Below, one piece after another: positions 44,869-63,255 of a DNA stretch of 64,000 nt (the first letter of the stretch is position 1; every line of letters begins with the position of its first letter). Under the pieces are notes generated by a model. That model searched no databases, was not told where the DNA came from, and saw nothing but the letters and a program-made list of their open reading frames with translations. Source of the DNA: Streptomyces nanshensis (GTDB lineage Bacteria; Actinomycetota; Actinomycetes; Streptomycetales; Streptomycetaceae); the NCBI RefSeq assembly GCF_001751255.1, contig NZ_LJGW01000143.1:1-64000 (forward strand). Reading direction: 5' to 3'. Both the position numbers and the translations under genes were made by a program.

Positions 44869-46331
44869 GCGCAGCCCCACGGGTCGTCGCCGTGGACGTC
44901 GGCACCTCCGCGGTGCGCGCCGCTGTCGTCGACCTCGACGGACGCGTCCTGGCGACCCGTCACCGCTCCCGCGCGTGCGACCCGGGCGGAGAGATCTTCG
45001 ACCCGGCCGCGCTGCACCGCGACGTACTGGCCGCCCTGCGGGGCGTCTCCGCCGCCGAGGAGGCCGCCACCGGGGAGGCCGGCGCCGGCGAACCGCCCGC
45101 CGCGCTGGCGATCGCCGCCCACATCGGCACCGTCACCGTGGACGCGGACCTCGAACCCGAGGAACGCGGCGGCGGCTGGTCCGATCCCCGCGGTCTGGAG
45201 AGGCTCGCGGCGCTCGACGACGCGACCGTACGGCGGATCCTGCACGCCTCCGGGCGGCCCTCGCTCGCCGGGGGCGCGCTGGCTCGCCTGCTGGAGAGGG
45301 ACGCGGAGCACGCCGCGTCCGTACACGCCGTGCTCTCGCCCAAGGACTTCCTCGTCGCACGGCTCACCGGGGAGCTGGTCTCCGACACCGTCGGCGCCGC
45401 GTACACCCTGGCGTCCGACGTGCGCAGCCGCTCCTGGAACACCGCGCTGCTGGACGAACTGGGCCTGGACGCCTCGGTGTTCGCACCGCAGACCGAACCG
45501 GCCTCCGTGGTCGGCACCCTCACCGGACCGGCCGCCGACGCCACGGGCCTGCCCGCGGGGCTTCCCGTCGTATCCGGCGGACCGGACGGCTCCGTCGGCA
45601 TCGGGCTGCTGCTGGGCACCCGTGAGGACGCCGTCGCGGACGTCGCCGGAACCACCGACGTGGTCGGACGGCTGCTGCCCTCGGCCGACGAGGCTCCCGA
45701 GGGCGCCGTCCTCAACCCCTCGGTCCTGCCCGGCCGGTTCGTCGCGGGCGGAGCCAGCGGACTGACCGGCGGAGCCGTCGCCCGGTGGCGGTCCCTGACC
45801 GGTGACGTCGAGGACGAGCGGATCGCGGAAGTGCCGCCGGGGGCCGACGGGTTGACGGTCCTGCCCGCCATGACGGGCGCACGCTTCCCGCGCTGGCGGC
45901 CCGGCTCCCGCGGTGCGGTGCTCGGACAGCACCCCGGGCACGGTCCCGCCCATCTGCTGCGCGCCGCGCAGGAGGGGGCCGCGTTCACCGTGCGCGAGGG
46001 GCTGGACCGGCTCGACCCCTCGGGGCGGCTTCCGGTCGTCCTCGCCGGCGGCTCGGCCCGCAGTACGCATCTGGCACGACTGCGCGCGGACGCGCTGGAC
46101 CGTCCGCTGCTCATCTCGCCGCAGCCGGACGTGACCCTGCTCGGCGCCGCCGCGCTGGCGTTCCTGGGCTGCGGTGCGGCCACGGATCTGGACGCCCTGC
46201 GCTCCCGGCTGATCGGCACCCTGCGCGAAGTCCGTCCCGACGCCGCGCACGCGGCCCGCTACACCGGGCTCTACGCACGCTGGCGCGCACTGCACGACGC
46301 GGTGGACCGGGAGGAGGGCACCGGGGGCTGA
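44865..46331 (+). CDS. FGGY-family carbohydrate kinase
   Basis: The 488-residue sugar kinase has the N-terminal phosphate-1 motif VVAVDVGTSAVRAAVVDLDGRVLA and a C-terminal adenosine site (VLAGGSARSTHLARLRADALDRPLL). It also has a metal/substrate region (PVVSGGPDGSVGIGLLLGTREDAVADVAGTTDVVG), typical of FGGY kinases for xylulose, ribulose, glycerol, gluconate and related polyols. The first FGGY signature is degenerate. It is the last gene of the operon, coupled to the regulator by ATGA. Its presence beside CoA chemistry is unusual and suggests that the imported compound carries a sugar or polyol part. Confidence 0.85.
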   Translation: MSAAPRVVAVDVGTSAVRAAVVDLDGRVLATRHRSRACDPGGEIFDPAALHRDVLAALRGVSAAEEAATGEAGAGEPPAALAIAAHIGTVTVDADLEPEERGGGWSDPRGLERLAALDDATVRRILHASGRPSLAGGALARLLERDAEHAASVHAVLSPKDFLVARLTGELVSDTVGAAYTLASDVRSRSWNTALLDELGLDASVFAPQTEPASVVGTLTGPAADATGLPAGLPVVSGGPDGSVGIGLLLGTREDAVADVAGTTDVVGRLLPSADEAPEGAVLNPSVLPGRFVAGGASGLTGGAVARWRSLTGDVEDERIAEVPPGADGLTVLPAMTGARFPRWRPGSRGAVLGQHPGHGPAHLLRAAQEGAAFTVREGLDRLDPSGRLPVVLAGGSARSTHLARLRADALDRPLLISPQPDVTLLGAAALAFLGCGAATDLDALRSRLIGTLREVRPDAAHAARYTGLYARWRALHDAVDREEGTGG

Positions 46332-46472
46332 GCCGTCCCGGGCGACCGCCTGTCCGGCGGGCCCGCCCGGCCCCGGTCCGGGGGCCGCTCACGGCTGCCG
46401 TCAGCAGGGAAGTACCGAAGGTAACGGCGAGGTCGCGTGCGAGAATGTCGCAGGAGTTCCACGGGAGGACAC

Positions 46473-47138
46473 GTGACGATCGCGAAGCGCTCGGCCCGGC
46501 GGCCGATAGCGGACCAGATGTACGACGTGCTCATGCGTCAGTTGCTCGACGGCGAGCGCATGGCGGGCGAGACGCTCAACATCGGCGCGCTGACGCGAGA
46601 GCTCAACGTCAGCCAGACCCCTCTGCGTGAGGCGCTCGCACGGCTCGAACACACCGGCCTGGTGTACCGGGAGGCCCTCAAGGGCTACCGCGTCGCCAAC
46701 CCGCTCAGCGACCGCGAGGTCGACAAGCTCTTCGAGGCCCGGTCGGTGCTGGAACCGGCCCTCGCCTACGAGGCGGCGCTGCGTACGACGCCGGAGTTCC
46801 TGGAGGAGCTGCGCGGCACGGTCGACGAGCTGGCCGACGCCAGCACGCACGCCGACGAGGAGACCGACAGCTTCCGCCACTACTGGCACTCCGACGCCGA
46901 GTTCCACCGGCTGATCGCCGCGCAGAGCGACAACCCGTTCCTGGAGCACTCCTATCTCGCGCTGACCGGACACATGCAGCGCTTCCGGCTGTTCACCAAG
47001 CGCGGCCGTACGGGGGCGGCGGCCGCCGCGCGAGAGCACCGCGTCGTCCTGGACGCGCTGCAGAAGTCCGACCCGGACGGCGCGCGGGAGCAGATGCGCC
47101 AGCACCTCCTGGACGCCCGCGCACGCCTTCTCTCCTAG
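46473..47138 (+). CDS. GntR-family (FCD subfamily) transcriptional regulator
   Basis: The 221-residue regulator has a winged helix (YDVLMRQLLDGERMAGETLNIGALTRELNVSQTPLREALARLEHTGLVYREALKGYRVANPL). The FCD domain shows metal/ligand-type histidines in DSFRHYWHSDAEFHRLIAAQSDNPFLEHSYLALTGHMQRFRL and REHRVVLDALQKSD. The start is GTG 46473 with GGGAGGA upstream; an ATG at 46445 opens a different frame and was not used. It stands between the two catabolic operons and is convergent with the sugar-acid operon (stop to stop 17 bp). It is the obvious candidate to bind the two ACTATA-N-TAT motifs found upstream of those transcription units. Confidence 0.88.
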   Translation: MTIAKRSARRPIADQMYDVLMRQLLDGERMAGETLNIGALTRELNVSQTPLREALARLEHTGLVYREALKGYRVANPLSDREVDKLFEARSVLEPALAYEAALRTTPEFLEELRGTVDELADASTHADEETDSFRHYWHSDAEFHRLIAAQSDNPFLEHSYLALTGHMQRFRLFTKRGRTGAAAAAREHRVVLDALQKSDPDGAREQMRQHLLDARARLLS

Positions 47139-47155: not shown

Positions 47156-48277
47156 CTAGCCCGGACCGCGGGACTCGGGCAGCCGGTCCAGCACGGCGCG
47201 GCGGTACCGCCCGCACATCGCACGCAGCGAGCCCAGATCCATCGCCTCGTCCACCGCGTGCATCTGCGCCGGGGCACCGGGCCCCCACACCACGACCGGA
47301 ACTCCCGGCAAGTGCGCGCGGAGCACCGAGGCGTCCGTGAAGTAGGGCACCCCGGCGGGCGCGACGGGTGCGGGAAGCGACCGGATCCACGGATGCGTAC
47401 GGTCCGTACGCAGCGCGGGCAGGCTCAACAGGGTGCGTACGGAGGCGAGTTCGGGCTGTGCCCGCCACCACCGCACCTGTGCCTCGCCCGCGCCGACCGT
47501 ACGCATGTCGATTGTCGCGGACGCGTGCGCCGGGACGATGTTGGGCGCCGTACCCCCGGCGACAGTGCCCACGTTCCAGGTCTCCTCGCCCAGGTCCGGG
47601 TCCGAGGACAACGGGAGCTCGTGCCGGGCGCGTTCCAGCACGCGGGCCAGTCCCAGGATCGCGTTCTCGCCCCGGCCGGGCGTGCTTCCGTGGGCAGCGC
47701 GGCCCCGCGCCTCGACGTCCAGCCAGAGCGCTCCGCGGTGGCCGACGTGGATCACGCCGTCCGTCGCCTCCGGAACGATCACGGCGCCGACGTCGCGGTC
47801 CGCCAGAGCGGCGGCGGCACCGGCGGCGCCCAGTGCGCCCGCCTCCTCGTCGCTGGTCATCAGCACGGCGACGGCCGCCCCGCGTTCCGCGGCGAGCACC
47901 AGCGCCGAAGTCGCCGCGGCCAGGCCGCACTTCATGTCCACCGCGCCACGGCCGGTCAGACGCCCGCCGTCGACGACCGCGCGGAACGGATCGGTCGACC
48001 AGGCACCGGGATCCCCTGCCGGCACCGTGTCGGCATGGCAGACGAAGAGCAGCGTCTGGGCGCGCGCGTCCCCGGTGGAGAGCAGCGTCCACGGACGCTC
48101 CGCGCCGAGATCGCCGTCCTCCCGGACCGCCGGGTGCCGCTCCGTCGCGTACTCGGCGACGGTCCGCTGGACCGCCCGCTGCCCGTCGGCGTCCCCCGAC
48201 ACCGACGGGATCGCGATCAGCCGGCGCGCCAGGCCGACGACCTCGTCGGCGTCCTCCGTCAGAGCTTCGTCCTTCAC
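47156..48277 (-). CDS. M20-family metallopeptidase/deacylase
   Basis: The 373-residue M20 zinc enzyme (ArgE/DapE/carboxypeptidase G2 family) has the metal His-x-Asp in LLFVCHADTVPAG and the bridging Asp in GRGAVDMKCGLAAA. The catalytic Glu-Glu lies in MTSDEEAGALGAAG, then VPEATDGVIHVGHRGALWLDVEARGRAAHGSTP (lid region), with a late His in GPGAPAQMHAVDEAMDL. Members cut acyl or peptide bonds of N-acylated amino acids and small peptides. GTG 48277 has GACGGAGG directly upstream, 8 bases after the phosphotriesterase-like stop. It is the last gene of the minus-strand operon. Its role in a sugar-acid pathway would be removing an amide-linked group. Confidence 0.88.
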   Translation of the reverse strand: MKDEALTEDADEVVGLARRLIAIPSVSGDADGQRAVQRTVAEYATERHPAVREDGDLGAERPWTLLSTGDARAQTLLFVCHADTVPAGDPGAWSTDPFRAVVDGGRLTGRGAVDMKCGLAAATSALVLAAERGAAVAVLMTSDEEAGALGAAGAAAALADRDVGAVIVPEATDGVIHVGHRGALWLDVEARGRAAHGSTPGRGENAILGLARVLERARHELPLSSDPDLGEETWNVGTVAGGTAPNIVPAHASATIDMRTVGAGEAQVRWWRAQPELASVRTLLSLPALRTDRTHPWIRSLPAPVAPAGVPYFTDASVLRAHLPGVPVVVWGPGAPAQMHAVDEAMDLGSLRAMCGRYRRAVLDRLPESRGPG

Positions 48278-48285
48278 GGCCTCCG

Positions 48286-49416
48286 TCAACTCCTCCGCCC
48301 GGCGGCCCCGTTGCGCGCCGCCGTCACGAACAGGTCGCGGGGGTTGTCGGTCAGCAGCGCGGCCGCGCGTTCCGGTGCGACGCCCTCGCGTACGAGCGCG
48401 GGCAGGAAGCGCAGCGGGAGATGGTCGTAGCCGTAGCCGCCGAAGGCGTGGAGCTGCATCTTCAGATAGGTGTCGCAGGAGATCAGGATGCGTGCGCCCA
48501 GCCCTTCGCCGATGAGTCCGGCGACCGCCGAGGCGACGACCGAGTCGGCGGGCGCCTGGGTGTTCTGGTGCCCGAACCACCAGTCGATGCCGATCATGTC
48601 GAAGGACAGCCACGCGCCGCGGGCGGCGAGCGCCCGGTGGTACGCGACGTCGCCCGCGCTCGGGTTCAGATGGGACAGCACGACGGCCGCCGGGTCGCAG
48701 CCCTCGGCCTCCAGGACGTCGAGCACCTCGGTCCCGTACCGTTCCCACCCCGGCAGATGGACCGACAGCGGCAGACCGGTACGCCGCTGCGCCCGCCCGC
48801 TGGCCCGCAGCACCCGGCGCTCCTCGTCGGTGAAGTCCGCGGAGACGCCGGTCTCCCCCAGGATCCCCGCCCTGACCCCGTCGGTGCCCTCCTCCACCTC
48901 CCGCACGATGCTGTCGGCGATCTCGTCCAGGGTGGCGCCGCGCAGCCACGGCGGATGGAACGCCTCCAGGTAATACCCCGCTCCGGCGACGACGTTGAGG
49001 CCCGTGCGTTCCGCGACCTGCCGCAGATCGCCTTCGCGGCGCCCGCAGTCCAGCGGCGTCTGATTGACGATCGTCCGCCCTCCGACCGCGCGGAATCTGA
49101 GGGCCTCCGTGACGGCGAGGTCCGCGTCGTCGAGCACGGCGTTGTCGCGCGAGAGCATCGGGTCGAAGCGCAGCCGTGCCAGATACGCCGGACGCAGCGG
49201 CGAGCCCGCGATCTCCACGCCCTCGGCGTCGTCCGGGTCCGGCTCCCGGCATCTGCGCCGGTTGTCGGTGAAGAGATGCTCGTGCGCGAGCGTCATGCCC
49301 AGCTCGGACGCCGCGACCGGTCCGGTCACGGTCTGGACGGTGACCCCGGCTGCGTCCTCGGCCGTGCCCCCGGATGTGTCCCCGGTCGTGTCCCCTGTTG
49401 TGTCCTGCGCTGCCAT
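48286..49416 (-). CDS. Phosphotriesterase-family metal hydrolase (lactonase-like)
   Basis: The 376-residue TIM-barrel hydrolase has the N-terminal metal motif MTLAHEHLFTDN (His-x-His). ILGETGVSADFTDEE stands at the place of the bridging residue. Later metal ligands lie in LPLSVHLPGWE, VVLSHLNPSAGD and ILISCDTYLKMQL. Most bacterial members without organophosphate activity are lactonases or act on phosphorylated sugar lactones. A Thr/Gly-repeat at the extreme N-terminus (DTTGDTTGDTSGGTAED) is disordered, and an inner start cannot be excluded. It lies in the sugar-acid operon next to the DUF2419-like gene. Confidence 0.85.
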   Translation of the reverse strand: MAAQDTTGDTTGDTSGGTAEDAAGVTVQTVTGPVAASELGMTLAHEHLFTDNRRRCREPDPDDAEGVEIAGSPLRPAYLARLRFDPMLSRDNAVLDDADLAVTEALRFRAVGGRTIVNQTPLDCGRREGDLRQVAERTGLNVVAGAGYYLEAFHPPWLRGATLDEIADSIVREVEEGTDGVRAGILGETGVSADFTDEERRVLRASGRAQRRTGLPLSVHLPGWERYGTEVLDVLEAEGCDPAAVVLSHLNPSAGDVAYHRALAARGAWLSFDMIGIDWWFGHQNTQAPADSVVASAVAGLIGEGLGARILISCDTYLKMQLHAFGGYGYDHLPLRFLPALVREGVAPERAAALLTDNPRDLFVTAARNGAAGRRS

Positions 49417-49432: not shown

Positions 49433-50545
49433 TCAGTAGTACGGCGTGTATACGAGCGGCCAGCCCAGTTCCATCAGCGCGGGTCTGCGCTGGAAGGCCG
49501 TGCAGTCGTCACGGATGGGACAGGGCACGTCCTCCTCGCTCGCCCCGGGGTGGCAGGGGCGGCAGCGGAAGGCGGAGTGATACCAGAACTCGTGGTCCAG
49601 CTCGGCCAGTACGACCCCGGAGCGCCGCTGCACCTCGTCGAAGACCGCGACCGTCGCCGCGCGGAACTCCCGTTCCATGGCGGAGTCCATCGCGATCGGA
49701 CGGCGCTCGCGCAGCATCGCGGTCATCTCCTCGCTCAGCCGGAACACCCCCCAGCGGGTGAGGAAGAGCGGGATGTAGTAGTCCGCCGGCCCGAGCGAGT
49801 TCTCCGGGTCGTCGATCCGTACGAGCCGGGCGAACTCCTCGGTCGTCGGCAGACCGGCGTCGAGGCGGTTGTGCAACTGGTGCACGACGGTGATCGCCAG
49901 CTTGACGAACGGTTCGTCGCCGTAGCTCTTCGGGAAGTCCGCGGCGATCCGCTGCACCGACCCGTTGCCGTCCTCGCGGAACATCCGGCCGTCGGCCCGC
50001 TCCATGAGGTTGACCATGTGGCCGTCGTAGAAGCGGTTGAGCACCCGGCCGATCTCATGGAGCTTCTCCAGCCGGTGGTCGAGCATCTGGTAGGTGACCT
50101 CTCCCGTGACCTCGTCGCGGTAGACGTCCGCCAACTGCTCCCGGGTGATCGTCTCCAGGAAGTCCGCGTCCAGCAACGGCAGTCCGTCGTCGATGGCCCG
50201 CATGATGCAGGCGCTGACCGCGCGTTCCCCCGTGTACAGCTCGCCATTGACGTGGCAGTCCCACGCCTCGACGCCGTGCTGTGCCGCGTCCGTCCACCGC
50301 CAGATCGTGAAGCTCTGCGAACGCCGCATCAGATAGAACTGCAACGTGTCCCGGTCGTTGACCATGGGGCCCTGGTCCGGGGTGAGCAGTGTCGGCGTCG
50401 CGTGCCGGTCGGCTCCGAGCAGACGCTCGGCCATCCGTCGGGCCAGATCGTTCACGCGGTCGTGGTCGATGGACACATGCTCGGCTCCGCGCACGATCTC
50501 GTCGATCCGCGCCGTGATCGTTCCCCTATCGATGAGGACGCTCAT
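49433..50545 (-). CDS. Queuosine-salvage-like (DUF2419/QNG1 family) glycosidase homologue
   Basis: This 370-residue protein aligns by eye over most of its length with the queuosine 5'-phosphate N-glycosylase family. VNGELYTGERAVSACIMRAIDDGLPLLDADFLETITREQLADVYRDE matches the family's Y-x-G...L-x-A-x-x-R-A-x-x-E/D-G-I/L-P block. HEIGRVLNRFYDG, FPKSYGDEPFVKLA and LGPADYYIPLFLTRWGVFRLSEEM match FxSY...F-K-A...ADYxxP-x-x-L-x-x-x-G-x-L-x-x-S. The product ends in TPYY; the human enzyme ends in YY too. Unlike the human protein it has a C-terminal Cys cluster (Cys328, 331, 342, 348), perhaps zinc or iron-sulfur. ATG 50545 has GGGAGGAA upstream. It is part of the sugar-acid operon, so it may cleave a glycosidic bond of the imported compound. 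The true substrate is unknown. Confidence 0.75.
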   Translation of the reverse strand: MSVLIDRGTITARIDEIVRGAEHVSIDHDRVNDLARRMAERLLGADRHATPTLLTPDQGPMVNDRDTLQFYLMRRSQSFTIWRWTDAAQHGVEAWDCHVNGELYTGERAVSACIMRAIDDGLPLLDADFLETITREQLADVYRDEVTGEVTYQMLDHRLEKLHEIGRVLNRFYDGHMVNLMERADGRMFREDGNGSVQRIAADFPKSYGDEPFVKLAITVVHQLHNRLDAGLPTTEEFARLVRIDDPENSLGPADYYIPLFLTRWGVFRLSEEMTAMLRERRPIAMDSAMEREFRAATVAVFDEVQRRSGVVLAELDHEFWYHSAFRCRPCHPGASEEDVPCPIRDDCTAFQRRPALMELGWPLVYTPYY

Positions 50546-50599
50546 GAGTTCCTCCCGCACCGGCGGCTCTGTCGTCTCCCGTGCTGCTTCTCCGACACG

Positions 50600-51895
50600 T
50601 CAGTCATCGACATGCACATGCCCCTTCTTCTTCGCCACGAGATAGAGGACGACGCTCAGCGCCGCGACGCCTCCGCCGTAGACGCTGAACAGCCAGTACA
50701 GGTCCTGTTGTTGCAGCCAGATCATGATGTACGAGGCCGTGCCGCCGAAGAGCATCACGCCGAGCGCGAAGCCGAGGCCGACCCCGGTCGCACGGCAGGA
50801 CAGCGGCATCAGGCTGGTGGCGGTGAAGTTGACCAGGCCCATGTTCAGACAGACCACGATCCCGCCGAGCAGCACCACGAGCGCGAACACACCGAGACCG
50901 GGACGGGTGTAGAGCAGGGTCAGCCCCATCGCCGGGATGACCAGCAGGCGGCAGAAGACGAAGACGCGGGACGCACGGCGGCGGTCCGCGAAGCGCCCCA
51001 CGACCGGGCCGCCGAAGACGAGCATCACACCGAGTCCGCTGATGATCGCGAAGACGAGCGTGCTGTTCTCGTCGAAGACGGAGTTCGCCATGTTCGGAAG
51101 TCCGGTGTTCCAGGTGTAGTTGGCGACCTGGGCCGCGCCCACGACGAACACGATCGCCAGCAGGGCGAGCCGGCGCTCCCAGATCTCCCGCCAGACTCCG
51201 CCGGTCGTCGCGTGCTGGGCGTCCTCTGTGCTCTCGCCCTTCTTCAGCGTCTCCGGCAGGGTGCGCCGCAGCCAGACGATCGCGACGGCGAGAACGGTGC
51301 CGATGAAGAACGGGATGCGCCATCCCCACTCGTGCATCGCGTCCGAACCGACCGCGGCGCTGGTGAGGAAGCTGGCGAACATCGAGATCAGAATGCCGAG
51401 TTGGACGAAGGACCCGCTGACCACGCCGAGGTACTGCGCCCTGTTCCCCTCGGGCGCCAGCTCCATCGCGACCGTGTTGGCGACCGGCGCCTCGGCCCCG
51501 GTGACCAGCCCCTGGATGAGACGCAGCGCCAGCAGCAGAAAGCCGGCGGTCACGCCTATCTGGTCGTAGGTGGGCAGGAACGTGATCGCCAGCGTCGTGA
51601 CCGCCATGATCGACACACAGAGGATGAGGACCTTCTTGTGGCTGACCCGGTCCGCCAGCGGTCCCAGCACGACCGCGCCCAACGGCCGGGTGACGAACCC
51701 GGTGGCGAACACCGCGAGCGCCGCCAGGGTGGAGTTGACGGGGTTGTCCGACGGGAAGAAGTGCGGTGCGAGGAACGAGGCCATCAGGCCGTAGATGTTC
51801 CAGTCGTACCATTCCAGTGCGACCCCACCGCCGAGACCGGTGAGGATCTTCTTGTCTCCAAGAGTGCCGCGCTTGGGGACGACGCTTGCGACCAT
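50600..51895 (-). CDS. MHS-family MFS transporter
   Basis: The 431-residue transporter has twelve membrane segments and MHS signatures: GGVALEWYDWNIYGLMASFLAPHFF, RPLGAVVLGPLADRVSHKKVLIL, LRLIQGLVTGAEAPVANTVAMELAPEGNRAQ and FADRRRASRVFVF. The segment-4 motif is GLVTGAEAP in place of the usual GxxxGGEWG, hinting at a different substrate from the transporter at 38792. ATG 51895 (MVASVVP) is chosen because GGGAGG lies 8 bases upstream. An earlier start at 51916 would read through the ribosome site. It is the first gene after a 126-bp gap holding an ACTATA-type motif. Confidence 0.92.
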   Translation of the reverse strand: MVASVVPKRGTLGDKKILTGLGGGVALEWYDWNIYGLMASFLAPHFFPSDNPVNSTLAALAVFATGFVTRPLGAVVLGPLADRVSHKKVLILCVSIMAVTTLAITFLPTYDQIGVTAGFLLLALRLIQGLVTGAEAPVANTVAMELAPEGNRAQYLGVVSGSFVQLGILISMFASFLTSAAVGSDAMHEWGWRIPFFIGTVLAVAIVWLRRTLPETLKKGESTEDAQHATTGGVWREIWERRLALLAIVFVVGAAQVANYTWNTGLPNMANSVFDENSTLVFAIISGLGVMLVFGGPVVGRFADRRRASRVFVFCRLLVIPAMGLTLLYTRPGLGVFALVVLLGGIVVCLNMGLVNFTATSLMPLSCRATGVGLGFALGVMLFGGTASYIMIWLQQQDLYWLFSVYGGGVAALSVVLYLVAKKKGHVHVDD

Positions 51896-51958
51896 CGGTT
51901 CAACCTCCCTCGACAACCCTGCGACAGTGACTGACTCGAACTCATGATCGGAATGGGG

Positions 51959-51970
51959 ACTATAATATAG
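51959..51970. promoter_or_regulatory. ACTATAATATAG motif before the transporter gene
   Basis: CTATAATATAG (51960-51970) is a perfect 11-bp palindrome, 64 bp before the transporter start. It shares ACTATA-N-TAT and the final G with 58797-58808 (10 of 12 positions). On the minus strand it reads CTATATTATAGT and could overlap a -10 box. It is a candidate operator of the FCD GntR protein at 46473-47138. Confidence 0.45.
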
Positions 51971-52021
51971 CGCTTGATATCGGCGTCAAGGCTTCTGCCG
52001 ACGGGATGCGGACCGGTCCTC

Positions 52022-52699
52022 TCAGCTCGGCACGCTGAGACCCGCGGCCTCGAACCGTTCCCGGGCGCGGGCGCTGCACAGCAGGTCGGCGAAGTCCTGT
52101 GCGTCCGGGCCGACTTGGGGACGTACACCGACGGCGAACCGCGCGTACGACTGCAACTCCTCGGGCAGGGGCGCGATCACGTGCGAGCCCGGAACGGACC
52201 GCAGTTCGCTGATCTGCTGCACCGCGACGTCCGCCCTGCCGTCGGCGAGGGCGTGCGCCGTCAGTCCGCCCTCCAGCCGGACCGCTCGCTCGTCGATACG
52301 GTCCAGGAGGCCGCGTGCGCGCAGCACCGTCATGAAGTGGATCCCGCTGGCGCCGCTCAACGAGTAGGCGACCGCCCGTGCGTCCGACAGATAGCGCAGG
52401 AAGGCGTCCGCCGAGTCGTCCGCGGGACCGGGTGCGCCGGCGGGCCTGGCGTACCCCACCGCCGAGACGGCGATCTCGCGCACCGGCGAGGTGAGGAGTC
52501 CGCGCTCGGCGAGGTCGCGTACGACCGAGGCGACGCCGATGACCACGTCGGGGCGCTCCCCCCCGGTGATGCGCTCCAGCAGGACCGTGGTGGGCGCGAA
52601 GGCCGGGTCGATCCTCGCGTCGTGTGTCTCCTCGAAGAGCGGTATGAGGTGCTCGACGAGGGGCTGACGTACGACGAAACCGCTGTACACCGAGACCAT
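52022..52699 (-). CDS. Leaderless solute-binding-protein-like (ModA-type fold) protein
   Basis: The 225-residue protein resembles the periplasmic binding proteins of the ModA/SBP_bac_11 type: VYSGFVVRQPLVEHLIPLFEETHDARIDPAFAPTTVLLERITGGERPDVVIGVASVVRDLAERGL; SLSGASGIHFMTVLRARGLLDRI; GRADVAVQQISELRSVPGSHVIAPLPEEL. There is no signal peptide or lipobox, so it should stay in the cytoplasm. The start at ATG 52699 is 2 bases past the aldolase stop, which supports this as the real N-terminus. No ABC transporter genes adjoin it. It may be a ligand sensor or buffer for a pathway compound. Its function is unclear. Confidence 0.7.
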   Translation of the reverse strand: MVSVYSGFVVRQPLVEHLIPLFEETHDARIDPAFAPTTVLLERITGGERPDVVIGVASVVRDLAERGLLTSPVREIAVSAVGYARPAGAPGPADDSADAFLRYLSDARAVAYSLSGASGIHFMTVLRARGLLDRIDERAVRLEGGLTAHALADGRADVAVQQISELRSVPGSHVIAPLPEELQSYARFAVGVRPQVGPDAQDFADLLCSARARERFEAAGLSVPS

Positions 52700-52701
52700 G
52701 G

Positions 52702-53355
52702 TCAGCTCGCCTTCCGGGGTGTCGAAGGTGTCGGAGCGGACAGCGCCGCTGATTCGGACGGGGTGAGCGGCCGCATCGGCAGACCGCGCAGGGACAGGAA
52801 GACCTGGGCGGTGTGCTCGATCTCCTCCAGGGCGTCGAGTGCCGCGTCCACGTCCCGTCCGCTGACGATCGGTCCGTGGTTGCGCAGCAGCAGCGCGTGC
52901 GTCGCGTGCGCGGCCTCCTCCACCGTCGCCGCTCCCGCCGGGTCGCCCGGCGCGACGTACGGCAGGGCCCGCATCCGGCCGACGCGCATCGCGTAGTAGG
53001 CGGTCAGCGGCGGCAGGGGTTCCTCGTCGTCGAGGTCCGCCAGACAGGAGACGGCGGCGGAGTGGAGCGAGTGCGTGTGGACGACCGCCTGGTCGCCGGG
53101 GCGGGCGCGGAGCATGGCCGCGTGCAGCGGCGCCTCCTTGGTGGGGCGCGGTCCCGCCAGATGGTCTCCGGCCAGGCCGATCACCGAGAGGGCGTCGGCG
53201 CTGACCGCGTCGAGGGAGACGCCGGTCGGGGTGACGAGGATCTGTCCGCCCACGCGCACCGCGACGTTCCCCGTACGCCCATGGGTGAGGCCCCGGCGGT
53301 GGATCGAGTGGGCGACGCGTTCCAACTGCCGTGCGGCGGCGGCGCGTTCGGTCAT
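52702..53355 (-). CDS. otnC: Class II aldolase/adducin family protein, 3-oxo-tetronate 4-phosphate decarboxylase-like
   Basis: The 217-residue AraD-type protein has GLTHGRTGNVAVRV, a phosphate pocket near TPTGVSLDAVS, and a zinc site HTHSLHSAAVS (His-x-His). A third His lies in ALLLRNHGPIVSGRDVDAALDALEEIEHTAQV. In tetronate pathways OtnC decarboxylates 3-oxo-tetronate 4-phosphate to dihydroxyacetone phosphate. That reading is inferred from the adjoining OtnK- and OtnI-like genes. Its stop is 2 bp from the leaderless binding-protein start, and its start overlaps the kinase gene. Confidence 0.82.
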   Translation of the reverse strand: MTERAAAARQLERVAHSIHRRGLTHGRTGNVAVRVGGQILVTPTGVSLDAVSADALSVIGLAGDHLAGPRPTKEAPLHAAMLRARPGDQAVVHTHSLHSAAVSCLADLDDEEPLPPLTAYYAMRVGRMRALPYVAPGDPAGAATVEEAAHATHALLLRNHGPIVSGRDVDAALDALEEIEHTAQVFLSLRGLPMRPLTPSESAALSAPTPSTPRKAS

Positions 53356-54608
53356 GTCGCCGCCCCCGTCCCGGCCCCGCTCCCGTCCCCCGGCACGTCA
53401 CCCGTCACATCTACGAACAGCGTCGGACCGCCGAAGTTGCCGGACTTGAGCAGAAGGTGCAGTCCGTGCTCGCGGTCGTGGATCCACGGCACTCCCGGTG
53501 CCGCCTCCTCGCCGATCTCCGCGACCCGGGTGCGCAGCGCGCTCACGACCGCACCGGACGTCTCGCCGCCGGCGATCACCAGCCGGCGCAGCCCGCGTTC
53601 GGCCAGTCCCGCCGCGATCAGCCCCGTGGCCTCCTCGTAGAGGTCGGCCATTCCCTCCGGCGCCGACGCACGGTGCTCGGGCGGCTGGGAGGAGGCGATG
53701 AGCGCGGGTGCGTCGTCCGCGAGTCCGTCCCACCACCGCAGGGCCGCGTCCGCCAACTCGTTCGCTGACTGCCCCGGACCGCCCGTGAGTTGATAGAGGG
53801 GGCGGCCCACGTCGCGGAAGGCGGCGATCTGTTCGAGCGTACGGTGCGAGCAGCTTCCGGCGAGGACCGCCGTACGGCCCGCCGGCGGGCGCGAGGGTGC
53901 ATGCGAACCCGCCGACGAGGCTCTGCCGATCGCCCCGACGAGGCCCGCGGATCCGGCGACCACCGGGGCCGTGCGGACCGCGGAGGCCAGCACGTCGAGA
54001 TCGGCCTCGTCCAGCGCGTCCGCGACGACATGGACGGCACCGTGCGCGCCGAGCGCCTCCAGACGATCCCGTACGGCGCCGGTTCCGGCGTGGACCACCG
54101 CCAGCGGCAGCAGCTCCACCGGCCACCGTGCCTGCGCCCGCAGCAGACGCGGCACCGACGAGTCCCGCATCGGGGTGCGGGGGTGGTCGGCCATGTGCGT
54201 CTCGTGCAACAGCCGGTCGCCGACGAAGAGATGGCCCTGATACACCGTGCGTCCGTGCAGCGGCGCGCTCGGCGTGGTGACCACCGTCCGCGTGCCGAGC
54301 CGGCCGGCGAGGGCTTCGGTGACCGGACCGATGTTGCCGTCCGGCGTCGAGTCGAACGTGGAGCAGTACTTGAGATACACGCGCTCCGCGCCCTGTGCCG
54401 CCAGGGCCTCCCATGCCTCCAGGCTCTGCCGTACGGCGTCGGCGGCGGGGACCGACCGGGTCTTCAGCCCGAGGACGAGCGCGTCGGCGTGGCCTTCCCA
54501 GCGCGCGAGGTCCGTGGTGAGGGCGAGCGCGGTGCGCAGCCCGGCACGGCTCAGTGCCGCCGCGACGTCCGTGGCCCCGGTGGCGTCGTCGGCGATCACG
54601 CCGATCAT
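53352..54608 (-). CDS. otnK: Four-carbon acid sugar kinase (DUF1537), 3-oxo-tetronate kinase-like
   Basis: The 418-residue kinase starts IGVIADDATGATDVAAALSRAGLRTAL, the diagnostic N-terminal sugar-binding motif of the DUF1537/OtnK family. YLKYCSTFDSTPDGNIGPVTEALAGRLG and TVYQGHLFVGDRLLHETHMADHPRTPMRDSSVPRLL follow (substrate domain). The C-terminal ATP domain reads LVIAGGETSGAVVSALR and GLHLLLKSGNFGG. The family phosphorylates 3-oxo-tetronates, D-threonate or D-erythronate. ATG 54608 overlaps the racemase-like stop by 4 bases. It forms the core of the catabolic operon together with otnC and the OtnI-like gene. Confidence 0.9.
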   Translation of the reverse strand: MIGVIADDATGATDVAAALSRAGLRTALALTTDLARWEGHADALVLGLKTRSVPAADAVRQSLEAWEALAAQGAERVYLKYCSTFDSTPDGNIGPVTEALAGRLGTRTVVTTPSAPLHGRTVYQGHLFVGDRLLHETHMADHPRTPMRDSSVPRLLRAQARWPVELLPLAVVHAGTGAVRDRLEALGAHGAVHVVADALDEADLDVLASAVRTAPVVAGSAGLVGAIGRASSAGSHAPSRPPAGRTAVLAGSCSHRTLEQIAAFRDVGRPLYQLTGGPGQSANELADAALRWWDGLADDAPALIASSQPPEHRASAPEGMADLYEEATGLIAAGLAERGLRRLVIAGGETSGAVVSALRTRVAEIGEEAAPGVPWIHDREHGLHLLLKSGNFGGPTLFVDVTGDVPGDGSGAGTGAAT

Positions 54609-55270
54609 GCGCGCGTCTCCAGCGACTGCGCGAGACGTCTCGCGGCGGCGCTCGGACCGTCCAGCACGGGCGTGCCGAAGCGCTCCGCGAGGGCCTCGGC
54701 GGCCGGGGCGAGCGAGTACTGCGCGAGCACGATCAGGTCGTAGGGAACGCCGACGGCGGCGACCGCGTCGGTCAACTCCCGCGTCACCAGGGCCGGATCG
54801 TCCGTCGTGGCGGCGTCCTCGGCCACGACCGTGACGAGTTCCGCGCCGGCTCCTGCCTCCGTCAGGTACGCGCCGAGCCGGGCGGTGCTGTCGGCGGCGG
54901 ACGAGGCGAGGGAGGCGACCACGACGACGGTCTCCGGGGCCGCGGCGGCGACCTCGGCGAACAGCGGATCGTCCGCCGCGAGCACCGCGACGCCGTCCCG
55001 CCGCGGGTCCCGGATGCGTGCGCGGCCGCCGAACTGCGAACAGGTCAGCAGCACTCCGTCCGCTCCGCCCGCGACGGCGAGGTCGATGAGGCGGTCCATC
55101 CGCTCGCCCAGGGACGGCGTCACCCCGCCCTCCGCGGTGGCGTCGGCGAGCAGCCGGTCGTCGATGAGGTTCCACACCGTCGCCTCCGGCAGGGCCGCGC
55201 CGACGGCCGCCGCCGCGGGCGGCACGGCCTTCGGCGTCGTGCTGATGAGGGCTATCCGTCCAGACGTCAT
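54605..55270 (-). CDS. Asp/Glu/hydantoin racemase-superfamily protein
   Basis: The 221-residue protein has the two-domain racemase fold with a cysteine in each half-site region. The N-terminal part shows RIALISTTPKAVPPAAAA and the first catalytic Cys in GVLLTCSQFGGRAR. The second half (LIVLAQYSLAPAAEAL) carries Gln-Tyr where the second catalytic Cys normally stands, so a two-base racemase reaction is doubtful. A decarboxylase or isomerase-type activity, as in arylmalonate decarboxylase, is the alternative. ATG 55270 (MTSGRI) overlaps the OtnI-like stop. The role in the pathway is unknown. Confidence 0.72.
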   Translation of the reverse strand: MTSGRIALISTTPKAVPPAAAAVGAALPEATVWNLIDDRLLADATAEGGVTPSLGERMDRLIDLAVAGGADGVLLTCSQFGGRARIRDPRRDGVAVLAADDPLFAEVAAAAPETVVVVASLASSAADSTARLGAYLTEAGAGAELVTVVAEDAATTDDPALVTRELTDAVAAVGVPYDLIVLAQYSLAPAAEALAERFGTPVLDGPSAAARRLAQSLETRA

Positions 55271-56073
55271 CGGTACAGTCCCTTCGTCCACACCAGGCCC
55301 TCCGCCGTGCCCGACGCGGGCTCGTACTCACAGCCGACCCAGCCCGGATATCCGCTGCCGGCGATGCGTTCCAGCACGCGTGCGTACGCGATCTCCCCGG
55401 TGCCCGGCTCCCCGCGGCCCGGGTTGTCCGCGATCTGTACATGGGCCACCGCCGTACGCAGCGTCTCGAAGCGCTCGATGACGTTTCCGCCGCTCACCTG
55501 CGCGTGGTAGACGTCGAAGAGCACGCCGACGGTCTCCGGGTCGACGGCCTGTGCGACCGCGGCGGCCGTCTCCATGGACGCCAGCCCGTACCCCGGCTGA
55601 TCCCGGCGGTTGATCGCCTCCAGCGCCAGCCGCACACCGCTCCCCCGCGCCCGGTCGGCGGCCCAGGCGATGTTGGCGACATAGCCCGCGAACGCCGCGT
55701 CCGGATCGCTGTCCTGCGGTCGCACCCCCGCCATCACATGGACGACACGGGTGCCGAGCACCGCCGCGTACTCCAGCGCCCGTTCCACCCCCGCGCGGAA
55801 CTCCTCCCGCGCACCGGGCACATACGCCGCCCCCGCGGCGGTGGCCGAACCCGCGGGACCCGCCGGGGTGTTGACGAGCACCTGCTCCAGCCCCGCGGCG
55901 TCCAGCAACCGCCGCACACGGGACGGTGCGAGCGCGTACGGCGAGGGGAACTCCACCGCGCGGAAGCCCGCCTGCGCCGCGGCGTCGAAGCGTTCCTCGA
56001 ACGGCAGCTCCGTGAACAGCCACTTGAGGTTGGCGGCCAGCCGTATCGGCCCCGAGGGCGTCTCGATCCTCAT
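55267..56073 (-). CDS. otnI: Hydroxypyruvate isomerase-family sugar isomerase, 2-oxo-tetronate isomerase-like
   Basis: The 268-residue TIM-barrel xylose-isomerase-like protein has the Hyi/OtnI opening LAANLKWLFTELPFEERFDAAAQAGFRAVEFPSPY. VVHVMAGVRPQ, LALEAINRRDQPGY (metal Glu), VGVLFDVYHAQVSGGNVIERF (metal Asp and His), VAHVQIADNPGRGEPGTGEI (His and Asp) and WVGCEYEP (Glu) complete the metal and catalytic set. OtnI turns 2-oxo- into 3-oxo-tetronate before the OtnK step. ATG 56073 overlaps the dehydrogenase stop by 4 bases. Confidence 0.88.
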   Translation of the reverse strand: MRIETPSGPIRLAANLKWLFTELPFEERFDAAAQAGFRAVEFPSPYALAPSRVRRLLDAAGLEQVLVNTPAGPAGSATAAGAAYVPGAREEFRAGVERALEYAAVLGTRVVHVMAGVRPQDSDPDAAFAGYVANIAWAADRARGSGVRLALEAINRRDQPGYGLASMETAAAVAQAVDPETVGVLFDVYHAQVSGGNVIERFETLRTAVAHVQIADNPGRGEPGTGEIAYARVLERIAGSGYPGWVGCEYEPASGTAEGLVWTKGLYR

Positions 56074-57062
56074 GCGTGCACGGACTTCTCGTACGCCGGG
56101 TTGACCACGTGCGCCGGACGGCCGCCGCCGAGGACCGTGAGGACGTTGTCCGCGGCGTTCCGTCCCGATGCGGCTCTGGCCTCCCGGGTGGCACCCGCGA
56201 TGTGCCCGGTGGTGATGATGCCCGGCGTGTGCAGCAACGGGCTGTCCACGGGCAGCGGTTCGACGCGGAAGACGTCGAGCGCCGCGGCGCCGATCCGCCC
56301 GGAGCGCACGGCAGCGACGAGGGCGTCCTCGTCGATCACGCCGCCGCGCGAGGTGTTGATCACGACCGCGTCGGACTTCATCGTCGCGAAGGCGGCGGCG
56401 TCGAGGAGGTCGCGCGTGCTGTCGTCGAGAAACAGGTGCAGCGTGAGGAAGTCCGCCTCGCGCAACACGTCCTCCAGGTCGCCGCGTTCGATGTGGTGCG
56501 CGGCGGCATACTCCGCGTCGAAGTGCGGGTCGTACGCCATCACCCGCATCCCGAAGGCACGGGCGATGTGCGCCACCGCCTTCCCGATCGACCCGAGGCC
56601 GAGGATGCCCAGCGTCGCGCCGCGCAGTTCGCGTCCGGTCCGCTGCCGCCAGCATCCCTCGGCGAGGTCGCGGCCGTCGGGGATGTTGCGCGCCGCGGAG
56701 AGCATCAGCGCGAAGACGTGCTCCGCGACGGCCTGGCGGTTCGAGCCCGCCGTGACGCAGACGGGGACGCCGCGGGACGTGGCCGCCTCGACGTCGACGT
56801 TGTCGTAGCCGACTCCCGTACGCACCACGATTCTCAGGTCCGGAGCCTCCTGAAGGAACCGCCCTTCGAGCCGGTCCGTCCCGGCGATGATCGCGCGCAC
56901 CCCGGCCAGCAGCGCCTTGCGCGGGCCGTCCCCCATCTCCGTCAGACCCGTCGTGTGCACCGTGCGCAGTCCCGCGTCGCGCAGCATCGTGTCCACGGCG
57001 TCGCCCTCGTGCAGGAACGCCGTCGTTATCAGCACGTCCGCACCGCTCGCGTGGTTCGTCAC
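56070..57062 (-). CDS. D-isomer-specific 2-hydroxyacid dehydrogenase
   Basis: The 330-residue NAD(P) dehydrogenase is related to phosphoglycerate and glyoxylate dehydrogenases. The catalytic domain shows LRIVVRTGVGYDNVDVEAATSRGVPVCVTAGSNRQAVAEHVFALML. The nucleotide domain has LRGATLGILGLGSIGKAVAHIARAFGMRVMAYDP. The catalytic Arg and Glu lie in INTSRGGVIDEDALVAAVRSGRIGAAALDVFRVEPLP, and the His in TTGHIAGATREA. It would oxidise a 2-hydroxy acid to the 2-oxo acid. GTG 57062 overlaps the epimerase-type stop (GTGA). Confidence 0.92.
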   Translation of the reverse strand: MTNHASGADVLITTAFLHEGDAVDTMLRDAGLRTVHTTGLTEMGDGPRKALLAGVRAIIAGTDRLEGRFLQEAPDLRIVVRTGVGYDNVDVEAATSRGVPVCVTAGSNRQAVAEHVFALMLSAARNIPDGRDLAEGCWRQRTGRELRGATLGILGLGSIGKAVAHIARAFGMRVMAYDPHFDAEYAAAHHIERGDLEDVLREADFLTLHLFLDDSTRDLLDAAAFATMKSDAVVINTSRGGVIDEDALVAAVRSGRIGAAALDVFRVEPLPVDSPLLHTPGIITTGHIAGATREARAASGRNAADNVLTVLGGGRPAHVVNPAYEKSVHA

Positions 57063-57844
57063 CAGATCCCTCCGCGGTAGTCCGCCGCCGTGAACCCGCC
57101 GCCCTGGAGCGTGGGTTCGCCCCGGGTGCGGTCGACGCGGTCGGCGTGGCCGGCGGCGTCGTCCCGGGGCGCGTAGCCGATCGCCGCCCAGCCCGCCGTG
57201 CCGTCCCACCACGAGTCGGAGTTGGCCGAGCAGCCGTACACCACCTGGCAGCCGACCGCCGGGGCGTCGACGGCGCACCGTACGAGTTCGGCGCCGTCGT
57301 CCCAGCTCAGCCAGATGGAGAGTTGGCGTACGTCCTCCGGCTCCGGCCGGAAGGCACCGATCCGCAACAGCACCGACTCCACGCCCCACTTGTCGTGGTA
57401 GAGCGCGGCGAGCGCCTCGCCGAACGCCTTGGACACCCCGTAGTAGGTGTCCGGCCGCAGCAGCGACGACTCGGTCAGCACCTCGGACACGTCGTGGAAG
57501 CCGGTCACATGGTTCGAACTTCCGTAGACCACGCGGCGCACCCCGGCCCGGCGCGCGGCCTCGTACACGTGGTACGTGCCGGCGATGTTGGTCTCCAGGA
57601 TGTCGGAGAACGGCGCCTCGTCCGCGAGCCCGCCGAGGTGGACGACGACGTCCACGCCGCGCGCCGCCGCCGTCAGCGCGTCGAGATCGCCGAGGTCGCC
57701 GACGACGACCTCCTCCCCCGGGAACAGCGAACTCTCCGGCTGCGAACGGGCGTAGAGGACCGTCCGCGGATAGCGCCCCGCCAGGCGCTCCCTGATGACA
57801 CTGCCCATGCGGCCGGTACCGCCGGTGTACATCACCGTCGTCAT
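57059..57844 (-). CDS. NAD-dependent epimerase/dehydrogenase, uronate- or erythronate-dehydrogenase-like
   Basis: The 261-residue extended short-chain dehydrogenase has the NAD motif MYTGGTGRMGSVIRERL and the VVHLGGLADEAPFSDILETNIAGTYHVYEAARRAGVRRVVYGSSNHVTGFHDV stretch. The catalytic YxxxK lies in DTYYGVSKAFGEALAALYHDKWG. RIGAFRPEPEDVRQLSIWLSWDDGAELVRCAVDAP and WWDGTAGWAAIGYAPRDDAAGHADR follow. The SSNHVTGF block and the overall pattern are those of uronate dehydrogenase. D-erythronate dehydrogenase (DenD) of tetronate pathways belongs to the same superfamily. Either would feed the OtnI-OtnK-OtnC steps. Confidence 0.85.
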   Translation of the reverse strand: MTTVMYTGGTGRMGSVIRERLAGRYPRTVLYARSQPESSLFPGEEVVVGDLGDLDALTAAARGVDVVVHLGGLADEAPFSDILETNIAGTYHVYEAARRAGVRRVVYGSSNHVTGFHDVSEVLTESSLLRPDTYYGVSKAFGEALAALYHDKWGVESVLLRIGAFRPEPEDVRQLSIWLSWDDGAELVRCAVDAPAVGCQVVYGCSANSDSWWDGTAGWAAIGYAPRDDAAGHADRVDRTRGEPTLQGGGFTAADYRGGIW

Positions 57845-57869: not shown

Positions 57870-58637
57870 TCAGGCGATGCTCCGGTCCTGCTCCGGGCCC
57901 GCCGCCTCGGCGAAGTACCCGATCTGTGCGCGCTGCGGCCGGCACCGCTGCGGGCTCCCGTCGACCAGGCGCAGCGCGACGTCGTGCCCCGGCACGAGGA
58001 GGCCCGAGGTGTCGGCCAGCACGGACCGCAGACGGTCGACGGTGCGGGTGCTGGCGTCCTCGTCCATCGTCGAGTGGGCGCGTGACGTGGTCAGTTCGTG
58101 GATGTTCTTGACGGAGTCGCCCGCGAACAGCAACTGCTCCTCGGCGCGCTCGACATGGAACGCGAGATGTCCCGGGGTGTGGCCGGGGCTCGCCACGGCG
58201 TGGACGCCCGGAAGGACCTCCTGGCCCGGACGCACCCGTTCCACGCCCTCGTCACGGCGGAGGAGTTCACGGACGTGGAGGTCGGGGACGAACGTCGTCC
58301 CGGGCGCCTGCGCCGCGGCCCACGCCAGCTCCTCTTCGCCCACCCATGTCGTCGCGTTCGGGAACATCGTGAAATTGCCGACGTGGTCCCAGTGCAGATG
58401 CGTCACCAGGACGTCGGTGATGTCGGCGGGGGTCAACCCCCGTTGCCCCAGCCCCTCGTGGATCAAGGGGATGTAGGCCGGCGGTCCCGCGTCCAGCAGC
58501 ACCCGGCGGTCTCCGTCCTCCAGCAGCCACAGGCTGCTCCAGCCGAACCCTCCGTGGGAGGCGGACACGGCGGGGAAGCCCTCCACGATCGGCACCGCGC
58601 TGTACATCGGCATCAGCCCTTTCACGCTGGGCCCCAC
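57870..58637 (-). CDS. Metallo-beta-lactamase-fold hydrolase (quorum-lactonase-like)
   Basis: The 255-residue protein has the MBL zinc motif VLVTHLHWDHVGNF (HxHxDH), the later His in VASPGHTPGHLAFHV, the bridging Asp in LLFAGDSVKN and the last His in LLVPGHDVALRLVDG. The layout (long first segment, HLHWDH) resembles N-acyl-homoserine lactonases and other lactone hydrolases. In this operon a sugar lactone is the likelier substrate, since the epimerase-type dehydrogenase would make one. It is the first gene of the operon. ATG 58637 or ATG 58613 may be the start. The control region with the ACTATA motif lies 160 bp upstream. Confidence 0.87.
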   Translation of the reverse strand: MGPSVKGLMPMYSAVPIVEGFPAVSASHGGFGWSSLWLLEDGDRRVLLDAGPPAYIPLIHEGLGQRGLTPADITDVLVTHLHWDHVGNFTMFPNATTWVGEEELAWAAAQAPGTTFVPDLHVRELLRRDEGVERVRPGQEVLPGVHAVASPGHTPGHLAFHVERAEEQLLFAGDSVKNIHELTTSRAHSTMDEDASTRTVDRLRSVLADTSGLLVPGHDVALRLVDGSPQRCRPQRAQIGYFAEAAGPEQDRSIA

Positions 58638-62589: not shown

Positions 62590-63255
62590 ATCGACTTCAC
62601 TCCACTCATTTCGCGTCATTCAGCGCCTCGAAGTTCAGAGCCCGATCCCCTCCTGGGCCATGAGATGATCGAGGACAATGGCGTTGGCCCCGGGTCGTCG
62701 CGAACGACAACACCATTGAATTGCGGGTCTGATCGCGTACAAGGCCTAGGCCTACGAGGCCTAAAGACGGCGGTGAGCCTAGCGCAGCCGGACCGCGAGG
62801 ACGGCGATCTCGTGCGGATGAAACAAGTTTGGCGCGGCCGTGAATACTTCCGCGCAGCCGATCTCCGTTCCTCTCGGCGCACCGCCGGGAGAATTGAAGG
62901 GATTCGCCCCCGATTCGCCGCGAATTCTTGAGAGATTCCCACAAGATGACGTCACGTTGCTTCCCAACGGCACCTGTGGACTGGTAGGCGCCGACGCCGA
63001 TCCGTCCTGTCTGAAGGGGCGCGGCGGCGGGCCGGAGCGGGAAGCCCCCAGACGGCCGAGCACCCAACTGGGAGACGGCAGGGGCGTGTTGATCGCGTCA
63101 GCCAGTTCGCGTGTTTCGTACGCCCCGACGGGGACTCCTCGATGCTCCGTACATGACGAGTTCGTTCTCGTCGCCGTGCACGCCCCCGGGAACACAACTC
63201 CCGCCCGCGACACGCGAACTGACGACCCGCCCACAAGATCGACTAGGGTCGCGAT
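62590..63255. other. Gap upstream of the DUF1996 gene (about 665 bp), no gene recognised
   Basis: It should hold the DUF1996 promoter on the minus strand and that of the small membrane protein on the plus strand. A plus-strand frame at 62840-63316 was weighed, but its third-position bias is weak. CCTAGGCC (62744-62751) and the nearby GAGGCCTA (62756-62763) form short symmetric elements. Nothing else was seen. Confidence 0.4.

Follow-up and report, generated by a model that had tools for sequence, protein, structure and literature searches.

A rare Qng1-fold protein with a four-cysteine loop in Streptomyces nanshensis, a probable N-glycosidase outside queuosine salvage

Introduction

The closest described counterparts of the protein analyzed here are the Qng1 proteins, members of the DUF2419 (Q_salvage) family that act on queuosine 5'-phosphate through a catalytic lysine-aspartate pair, followed in structural comparisons by the HhH-GPD DNA glycosylases, which include the iron-sulfur enzymes endonuclease III and MutY. 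In parts of PMC11130926, DUF2419 (Qng1) is treated as a marker of queuosine salvage in bacteria. We examined a DUF2419 gene located in a 64,000-nucleotide stretch of the Streptomyces nanshensis genome (assembly GCF_001751255.1, contig NZ_LJGW01000143.1, positions 1 to 64,000; hereafter, the window). The window has a GC content of 70.9%, and the genome comprises 7.7 Mb in an assembly that is 96.6% complete. We find it fairly probable that this gene encodes an N-glycosidase with the Qng1 fold and lysine-aspartate pair that represents a rare, separate actinobacterial clade, carries a metal-binding loop, and cleaves an imported nucleoside-like N-glycoside other than queuosine 5'-phosphate.

Family, fold, and active site

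The single Pfam match of the protein is Q_salvage, PF10343 (86.4 bits, with a cut-off of 25; E = 3.3e-24; residues 63-308), and this is the only DUF2419 match in its own genome. An NCBIfam search returned nothing at E ≤1e-5, and the PDB sequence matches at E ≤1 were Qng1/DUF2419 chains only (five distinct sequences, E of 1e-14 to 2e-9). An earlier, first-pass annotation of this DNA had placed the product in the DUF2419/QNG1 family and pointed to an ADYxxP block; both assignments hold, the block being present as PADYYIP and containing D255. The ATG at 50545 is favored as the start codon because the alignment with the ortholog described below begins at the same place, and a GTG at 50560 is a possible alternative. 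The GC content of third codon positions (GC3) is 0.84-0.97 across ten 37-codon blocks, the C-terminal block included, and the reading frame therefore appears to be sound to its end.

An AlphaFold2 model built from a 36-sequence alignment (mean pLDDT of 82.2, pTM of 0.83) overlays closely on Qng1, a check that the first-pass annotation had proposed: VIA-align gave a Z-score of 34.5 and a root mean square deviation (rmsd) of 2.4 over 306 residues against 7uk3, and a Z-score of 33.5 against the human protein 7ugk. The sole long stretch with a pLDDT below 50, residues 326-358, is the cysteine insert, which is preceded by a helix at 313-326.

The catalytic residues were located through the Qng1 mutants K199C and D231N, taken from PDB titles (7u5a and 7ulc) and from chain differences in the alignments, and correspond to K215 and D255 (Table 1). 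Invariance was assessed across 91 relatives, leaving out L100, which is ended by the contig end, and L101, whose best domain match falls on an odd stretch; these relatives are not independent, with 47 remaining at a 75% identity threshold. Besides the catalytic pair, G166, D210, P259, E291, E293, R295, D317, W321, P330, and Y370 are present in all 91 and in both members of the clade described below. With the catalytic lysine and aspartate and these other invariant residues kept, the catalytic apparatus looks intact. Three further positions invariant in 91/91 relatives behave differently. The Gln three residues after the catalytic lysine (K+3) is replaced by I218 here and by Val in the ortholog; the Phe two residues before the catalytic aspartate (D-2) is replaced by Pro in both clade members (P253 here); and the His is kept here as H332 and is Ser in the ortholog. 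The changes flanking K215 and D255 suggest a different pocket, in which the altered K+3 and D-2 positions might contact the substrate. In a broader comparison with 35 homologs, namely those of the 47 that come from the genome_contigs collection and also supplied the AlphaFold alignment, 10 of the 36 columns conserved at ≥90% deviate in this protein.

A rare two-member clade

One true ortholog was identified, in a genome of another family (G851, locus L149), with 54% identity over residues 4-370. The search that yielded it matched 6 of the 296 genomes of the class, own genome included, and four of the other five matches were at 28-31%. The ortholog shares the four cysteines of the C-terminal loop and both changed invariant positions, K+3 and D-2, and the two proteins are therefore considered to constitute a distinct clade. 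In a phylogenetic tree of 42 rows, they form a joint clade (support, 100/100) with a stem length of 3.44 changes per site, and a branch of only 0.044 groups it with the clade that contains most actinobacterial members. In an earlier tree built without the ortholog, the protein stood alone on a branch of length 3.63.

The clade is sparsely represented. Within a same-genus sample, the protein was found in 1 of 392 genomes, its own; across the phylum, a protein search matched 5/396 genomes, own included, and the Pfam model matched 16/396, 13 of them over the cut-off. In the family and order of G851, the count was one genome of 22 (the same 22 at both levels). A profile scan of genome_contigs yielded 91 relatives, all distant, the best local identity being 32% among the 80 kept. 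Exact peptide patterns, which can miss a relative at 50% identity, revealed no close relative in genome_contigs or viral_contigs; a scan of viral_contigs with the two-member alignment found nothing; plasmid and phage collections held no match to the DUF2419 protein; and a viral fold library gave no match at E ≤0.001. Separately, genome G381 was seen to hold two DUF2419 genes, L035 and L034, on contigs C24 and C76, respectively.

The cysteine loop

The usual C-terminus of the family consists of a conserved Trp followed by an uninterrupted terminal P-x-H-[LR]-x5-Y, which was found in 92 of 93 other members (the 93rd lost its C-terminus at a contig end). In the Streptomyces protein, an insert of about 31 residues follows the last helix and carries C328, C331, C342, and C348, the four cysteines reported by the first-pass annotation, after which the chain ends in the T-x-x-Y of the family, as in 34/35 and 35/35 relatives. 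The P-x-H of the family tail can be aligned as P330-C331-H332 here and as P-C-S in the ortholog. The tail of the ortholog reads FRCRPC-9 residues-CPHRTEC, compared to FRCRPC-10 residues-CPIRDDC here, giving the common clade pattern C-X2-C-X9/10-C-P-X4-C. Retention of all four cysteines while many other loop residues have changed points to selection on a metal site, and judging from this sequence pattern, the loop probably binds a metal, with a [4Fe-4S] cluster appearing slightly ahead of Zn(II). A frameshift artifact was considered as the source of the cysteine tail and is ruled out by the T-x-x-Y end, the GC3 profile, and the similar tail of the ortholog.

Likeness in loop position to iron-sulfur DNA glycosylases

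After Qng1, the best structural matches of the model are HhH-GPD DNA glycosylases, with VIA-align Z-scores of 13.3 for AGOG, 11.8 for endonuclease III, and about 9.8 for MutY. When the model, without its low-confidence stretches, was aligned to endonuclease III 1orn by VIA-align, the last aligned pair was model residue 327 with chain residue 188. The first iron-sulfur cysteine of 1orn is residue 189 by our reckoning (chain index 192 minus a three-residue tag), so that C328 would lie approximately at the start of the endonuclease III cluster loop. The first-pass annotation had flagged the cysteine cluster and missed this likeness in loop position. Two proteins encoded in the same Streptomyces genome score above the cut-off of the EndIII_4Fe-2S profile, one of which is endonuclease III by PDB match, and we interpret the other as MutY. 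The loop sequences of the two are CHSRKPACGVCPISHLC and CTARAPSCSKCPITHLC, with the endings CPISHLC and CPITHLC, compared to CPIRDDC in the DUF2419 protein.

These observations raise the possibility, which we regard as doubtful yet worth stating, of a metabolic, non-DNA N-glycosidase on the Qng1 fold that carries a [4Fe-4S] cluster at the position seen in endonuclease III and MutY and opens a route for an imported N-glycosidic natural product. A number of results weigh against it. In Foldseek, DNA glycosylases appear at E of 0.05 or worse, and Z-scores of 11-13 are within the reach of chance for helical models, so that the likeness is treated as a lead. Other endonuclease III chains end the alignment elsewhere (331/195 in 1orp and 359/196 in 1p59), and the loop register is accordingly good to a few residues only. 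The spacing in endonuclease III is CX6CX2CX5C, whereas it is CX2CX10CX5C here; the CPHRTEC ending of the ortholog lacks the Ile of CPI; and EndIII_4Fe-2S gave no Pfam match in the two tail fragments at E ≤10, in a search where the HMMER filters drop most weak matches.

Queuosine genes

TGT (PF01702), the target of a check suggested by the first-pass annotation, gave no match in the Streptomyces genome, whereas 14 of 14 control genomes matched; given the completeness of the assembly, a missed tgt gene is possible but unlikely. Plain queuosine salvage for tRNA is rejected on this ground. Together with the change of two residues invariant in 91/91 relatives, it also makes a queuosine role in general unlikely, and the annotation's proposal of a role other than tRNA queuosine salvage gains support from both findings and from the retained Lys/Asp pair. 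Three features of the Qng1 type fail here, the K+3 Gln, the D-2 Phe, and the uninterrupted P-x-H-[LR]-x5-Y tail, and these may be what determines specificity. The gene context differs as well. A PfkB kinase is encoded within 1.5 kb of the DUF2419 gene at 35 of 93 other loci (L024, L025, L027, and 32 more), divergently in 30 of the 35, and is plausibly a queuosine kinase that makes the 5'-phosphate substrate of Qng1; no PfkB kinase was found beside either clade member.

Genomic neighborhood

The MHS, DUF2419, phosphotriesterase (PTE), and M20 genes form a block downstream of a core of otn genes (Table 1), the PTE gene starting 16 bp downstream of the DUF2419 gene. The PTE and MHS neighbors named in the first-pass annotation were thus recovered, in a neighborhood that is odd for a tRNA-base salvage enzyme. 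Its further statement that the gene lies in an operon with OtnI, OtnK, and OtnC is right as to direction of transcription but too strong: between the genes for the substrate-binding protein (SBP) and the MHS symporter, there is a gap of at least 105 bp, and the sole promoter-like match in a scan of 12.7 kb (0.3 expected) falls within it. The same scan gave three terminator-like matches (expected, 1.6), none of them in the gap. As for the Otn labels themselves, OtnK passes its cut-off, and OtnI and OtnC fall below theirs.

Table 1. Features of the DUF2419 locus, with positions in the window
Feature	Positions	Strand	Basis or remark
GntR/FCD regulator	46437..47138	plus	convergent with M20
M20 family (ArgE/DapE-type) deacylase	47156..48286 (start approximate)	minus	Pfam; TIGR01910, 171.9 bits (cut-off 217.6); last of block
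Phosphotriesterase-family amidohydrolase/lactonase (PTE)	48286..49416	minus	PF02126, 1.6e-55; closest solved chain 3k2g, 302 bits
DUF2419/Q_salvage gene	49433..50545	minus	370 aa; PF10343, fold model, 54% ortholog
Cysteine loop, residues 328-348	49502..49564	minus	C-X2-C-X10-CPIRDD-C; insert after last helix
D255 codon	49781..49783	minus	Qng1 D231 (mutant D231N); invariant in 91/91
K215 codon	49901..49903	minus	Qng1 K199 (mutant K199C); invariant in 91/91
MHS-type metabolite:H+ symporter	50600..51916	minus	TIGR00883, 270.9 bits (cut-off 443.45); first of block
Promoter-like TTGACG-16-TATTAT	51962..51989	minus	SBP-MHS gap; consensus match only
SBP_bac_11-type protein	52022..52708	minus	PF13531, 2.7e-27; last of otn core; also in G484 and G459 operons
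OtnC-like decarboxylase	52702..53355	minus	NF043034, 221.4 bits, below cut-off 250
OtnK, 3-oxo-tetronate kinase	53352..54548	minus	NF043035, 371.6 bits, above cut-off 350
Asp/Glu racemase-like protein	54605..55291	minus	PF01177, 2.7e-8, 34.3 bits (cut-off 31)
OtnI-like/hydroxypyruvate-isomerase-like protein	55267..56067	minus	TIGR03234, 281.1 (cut-off 353.45, best match); NF043033, 273.9 (cut-off 325)
D-2-hydroxyacid dehydrogenase	56070..57080	minus	Pfam
Uronate-dehydrogenase-like SDR (sugar C1 dehydrogenase type)	57059..57844	minus	3rft, 203.5 bits
Metallo-beta-lactamase-fold protein, lactonase-like	57870..58637	minus	PF00753, 1.4e-23

Relatives of OtnI (E ≤1e-60) were detected in 4 of 101 genomes of the genus, own included. 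In two of these congeners, G484 and G459 (L141 and L142), the six genes from the 2-hydroxyacid dehydrogenase to the SBP stand together, bordered by a divergent GntR/FCD homolog, and the 19 kb around the otn core hold no match to the MHS, DUF2419, PTE, or M20 proteins; the core is followed in G459 by a permease recognized by eye as GntP-like. In G128, the third genome, only genes of the OtnK, OtnC, and OtnI type are present, and a weak regulator match lies close by. Given that the otn core occurs without the block in two congeners and that a promoter-like site lies in the gap, the block looks like a module beside the otn operon. The MHS-DUF2419-PTE-M20 genes may accordingly constitute their own transcription unit next to the otn operon, and a joint function of the two is possible.

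Elsewhere in the window, positions 35642-37474 encode a flavin adenine dinucleotide (FAD) monooxygenase that scores best in NCBIfam against rifampin monooxygenase (398.9 bits, below the cut-off of 800). The plus-strand region 41250-46331 encodes an acetolactate-synthase-type thiamine pyrophosphate (TPP) enzyme, a class III CoA-transferase, a GntR/UTRA regulator, and an FGGY sugar kinase, the three enzymes scoring below the NCBIfam cut-offs shown. On the minus strand, 60184-62619 encodes an 811-aa protein with a DUF1996 domain.

Uptake and catabolic genes in other genomes

In G851, the ortholog is followed by genes for an RbsB-like binding protein and an RbsA-like ATPase, after which the contig ends. 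The homolog survey proposed by the first-pass annotation thus places the one ortholog with a cysteine C-terminus next to sugar-type ABC genes. Nine further genes on this contig were scanned with Pfam and include no queuosine gene; they encode Ku, NUDIX, TauE, SpoU methylase, Band_7, NfeD, and HAD/ACT proteins, and two products have no match.

The two G851 transporter proteins were compared to 12 regions of the genus, nine of them surrounding PTE relatives and the other three surrounding OtnI relatives. The best matches of both were in the PTE regions of G408, G552, and G537 (L128, L130, and L129, respectively), with identities of 39% in all three for the binding protein and of 65, 58, and 57% for the ATPase, for which the next best match was 31%. 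An M20 gene (35-41% identity) is likewise present in each of the three. The 19-kb G537 region encodes LacI, BtpA, PfkB, a cytosine/purine-type permease, and an amidohydrolase, along with TenA-like and GATase1_like proteins recognized by eye, and in G408, a GATase1_like gene follows the PTE gene (Pfam). The kinase and nucleobase-permease genes of the G537 region suit nucleoside-like substrates, and the regions L128 to L130 probably represent an uncharacterized nucleoside-like catabolic theme. Through these similarities, the DUF2419 clade is linked to uptake-and-catabolism clusters of this kind.

Proposed function and alternative explanations

The evidence described above is most consistent with an N-glycosidase that cleaves an imported nucleoside-like compound. 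Such a compound would be imported by the MHS symporter or, at the locus of the ortholog, by the RbsB-type ABC transporter. As suggested by their families, the M20 and PTE proteins could remove acyl and lactone parts, acting on amide and ester/lactone bonds of the compound or its fragments. The K215/D255 pair would then cleave the N-glycosidic bond between base and sugar; the freed base would be routed to salvage, and the freed sugar to central metabolism, perhaps by way of the otn genes. The cysteine loop would bind a metal and, because it lies after the last helix and before the conserved C-terminal Tyr, would cap the pocket or shape its C-terminal edge. As to the substrate, peptidyl-nucleoside antibiotics or uronate nucleosides would fit the M20 protein and the uronate-dehydrogenase-like SDR but are only an idea. 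Several findings count against the proposal: the clade has just two known members; the loop is modeled at a pLDDT of about 40; and no match to PTE, M20, or otn proteins (nor to PfkB) was found on the G851 contig, which spans 21 kb and ends 2 kb after the gene. Furthermore, although 5 of the 9 PTE regions contain an M20 gene (35-42% identity), the M20 family is large and this may be chance. Finally, QueC gave two partial matches in the Streptomyces genome barely over the cut-off of 22 bits (22.8, and 21.9 or 22.3 with neighbors), covering 61 and 71 of 210 positions, with 12/14 controls matching; we read them as other nucleotide-binding enzymes.

A laterally acquired but otherwise ordinary queuosine or queuine-nucleotide hydrolase, which would convert environmental queuosine nucleotides to ribose phosphate rather than serve tRNA, would explain the intact Qng1 fold and Lys/Asp pair, would make TGT unnecessary, and would agree with the sugar-type uptake genes beside the ortholog and with the alignable P-x-H of the loop, though the ortholog has P-C-S. 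We nevertheless judge it unlikely because the invariant K+3 and D-2 residues are changed, the tail that is uninterrupted in nearly all relatives is rebuilt, and neither member has the adjacent PfkB gene seen at 35 of the 93 other loci. Loss of glycosidase activity, leaving a regulator, sensor, or structural protein on the Qng1 fold, could account for the very long stem of the clade and for the changed pocket-side residues; with K215, D255, D210, E291, E293, R295, D317, W321, and Y370 kept in both members exactly as in all 91 relatives, this explanation appears highly improbable.

A different question is where the freed sugar goes. The first-pass annotation had proposed that the fold was recruited for a bond in an imported natural product, whose sugar part takes the tetronate route; the part concerning another N-glycoside appears likely, and the route is unproven. 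In its full form, the pathway would begin with oxidation of the sugar by the SDR, continue with opening by the lactonases, and lead through OtnI, OtnK, and OtnC to dihydroxyacetone phosphate. Every gene called between 58637 and 47156 lies on one strand, the SDR is uronate-dehydrogenase-like, the lactonase-like metallo-beta-lactamase gene comes first, and the GntR/FCD regulator, which adjoins the otn core in G484 and G459, is located here on the far side of the block. These features speak for the full pathway, which is nonetheless quite unlikely: the otn cores of the two congeners lack the block, the core is followed by another permease in G459, the promoter-like site separates the two sets of genes, which possibly form separate units, and no otn match (30% identity, E <1e-20) was found in the 93 other DUF2419 loci (median, 15.7 kb) or on the G851 contig.

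Under the favored interpretation, an N-glycosidase of a separate clade with a substrate other than queuosine 5'-phosphate, membership in DUF2419 should not by itself be taken as a sign of queuosine salvage, because here the family covers a clade with the catalytic pair, a different pocket edge, a metal-type loop, and a host without detectable TGT. The cluster context points to an uncharacterized route for dismantling nucleoside-like natural products. If the loop does bind an iron-sulfur cluster, the long-debated role of the cluster in endonuclease III-type glycosylases could be examined in a setting other than DNA repair, and the doubtful reading set out above would, if true, link nucleoside salvage enzymes to iron-sulfur DNA glycosylases. 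A literature search, outside which most subscription journals fell, yielded no record of DUF2419 in Streptomyces or in connection with HhH-GPD proteins or an iron-sulfur cluster.

Comparison with known systems

The neighboring genes resemble operons for four-carbon sugar acids (otn), with an OtnK above its cut-off and adjoining OtnI- and OtnC-like genes below theirs; at the otn loci examined elsewhere, no DUF2419 gene was found alongside. Among structures other than Qng1, the best match, the AGOG 8-oxoguanine DNA glycosylase 1xqp, aligns over 228 residues at 8% identity, and its substrate is DNA. As in the [4Fe-4S] glycosylases endonuclease III, MutY, and NTHL1, four cysteines in the protein described here follow immediately on the last helix that aligns with confidence, and its CPIxxxC ending recurs in the two proteins from the same genome that have such a loop; the cysteine spacing differs, and the context here is not one of DNA repair. 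The nearest relative remains Qng1, represented by 7u07, which we take to be from Sphaerobacter thermophilus, by 7u91 of the same species, and by the human 7ugk. At about 26% identity, the Streptomyces protein differs from Qng1 in the replacement of Gln by Ile or Val at K+3 and of Phe by Pro at D-2, in the four-cysteine insert within an otherwise short tail, and in its setting, with no adjacent PfkB and a host without a detected TGT. Common to both are the fold (Z-scores of 33-34 and an rmsd of about 2.4 over about 305 residues), the catalytic lysine and aspartate, the ADYxxP block, and the C-terminal T-x-x-Y (residues 367-370 here).

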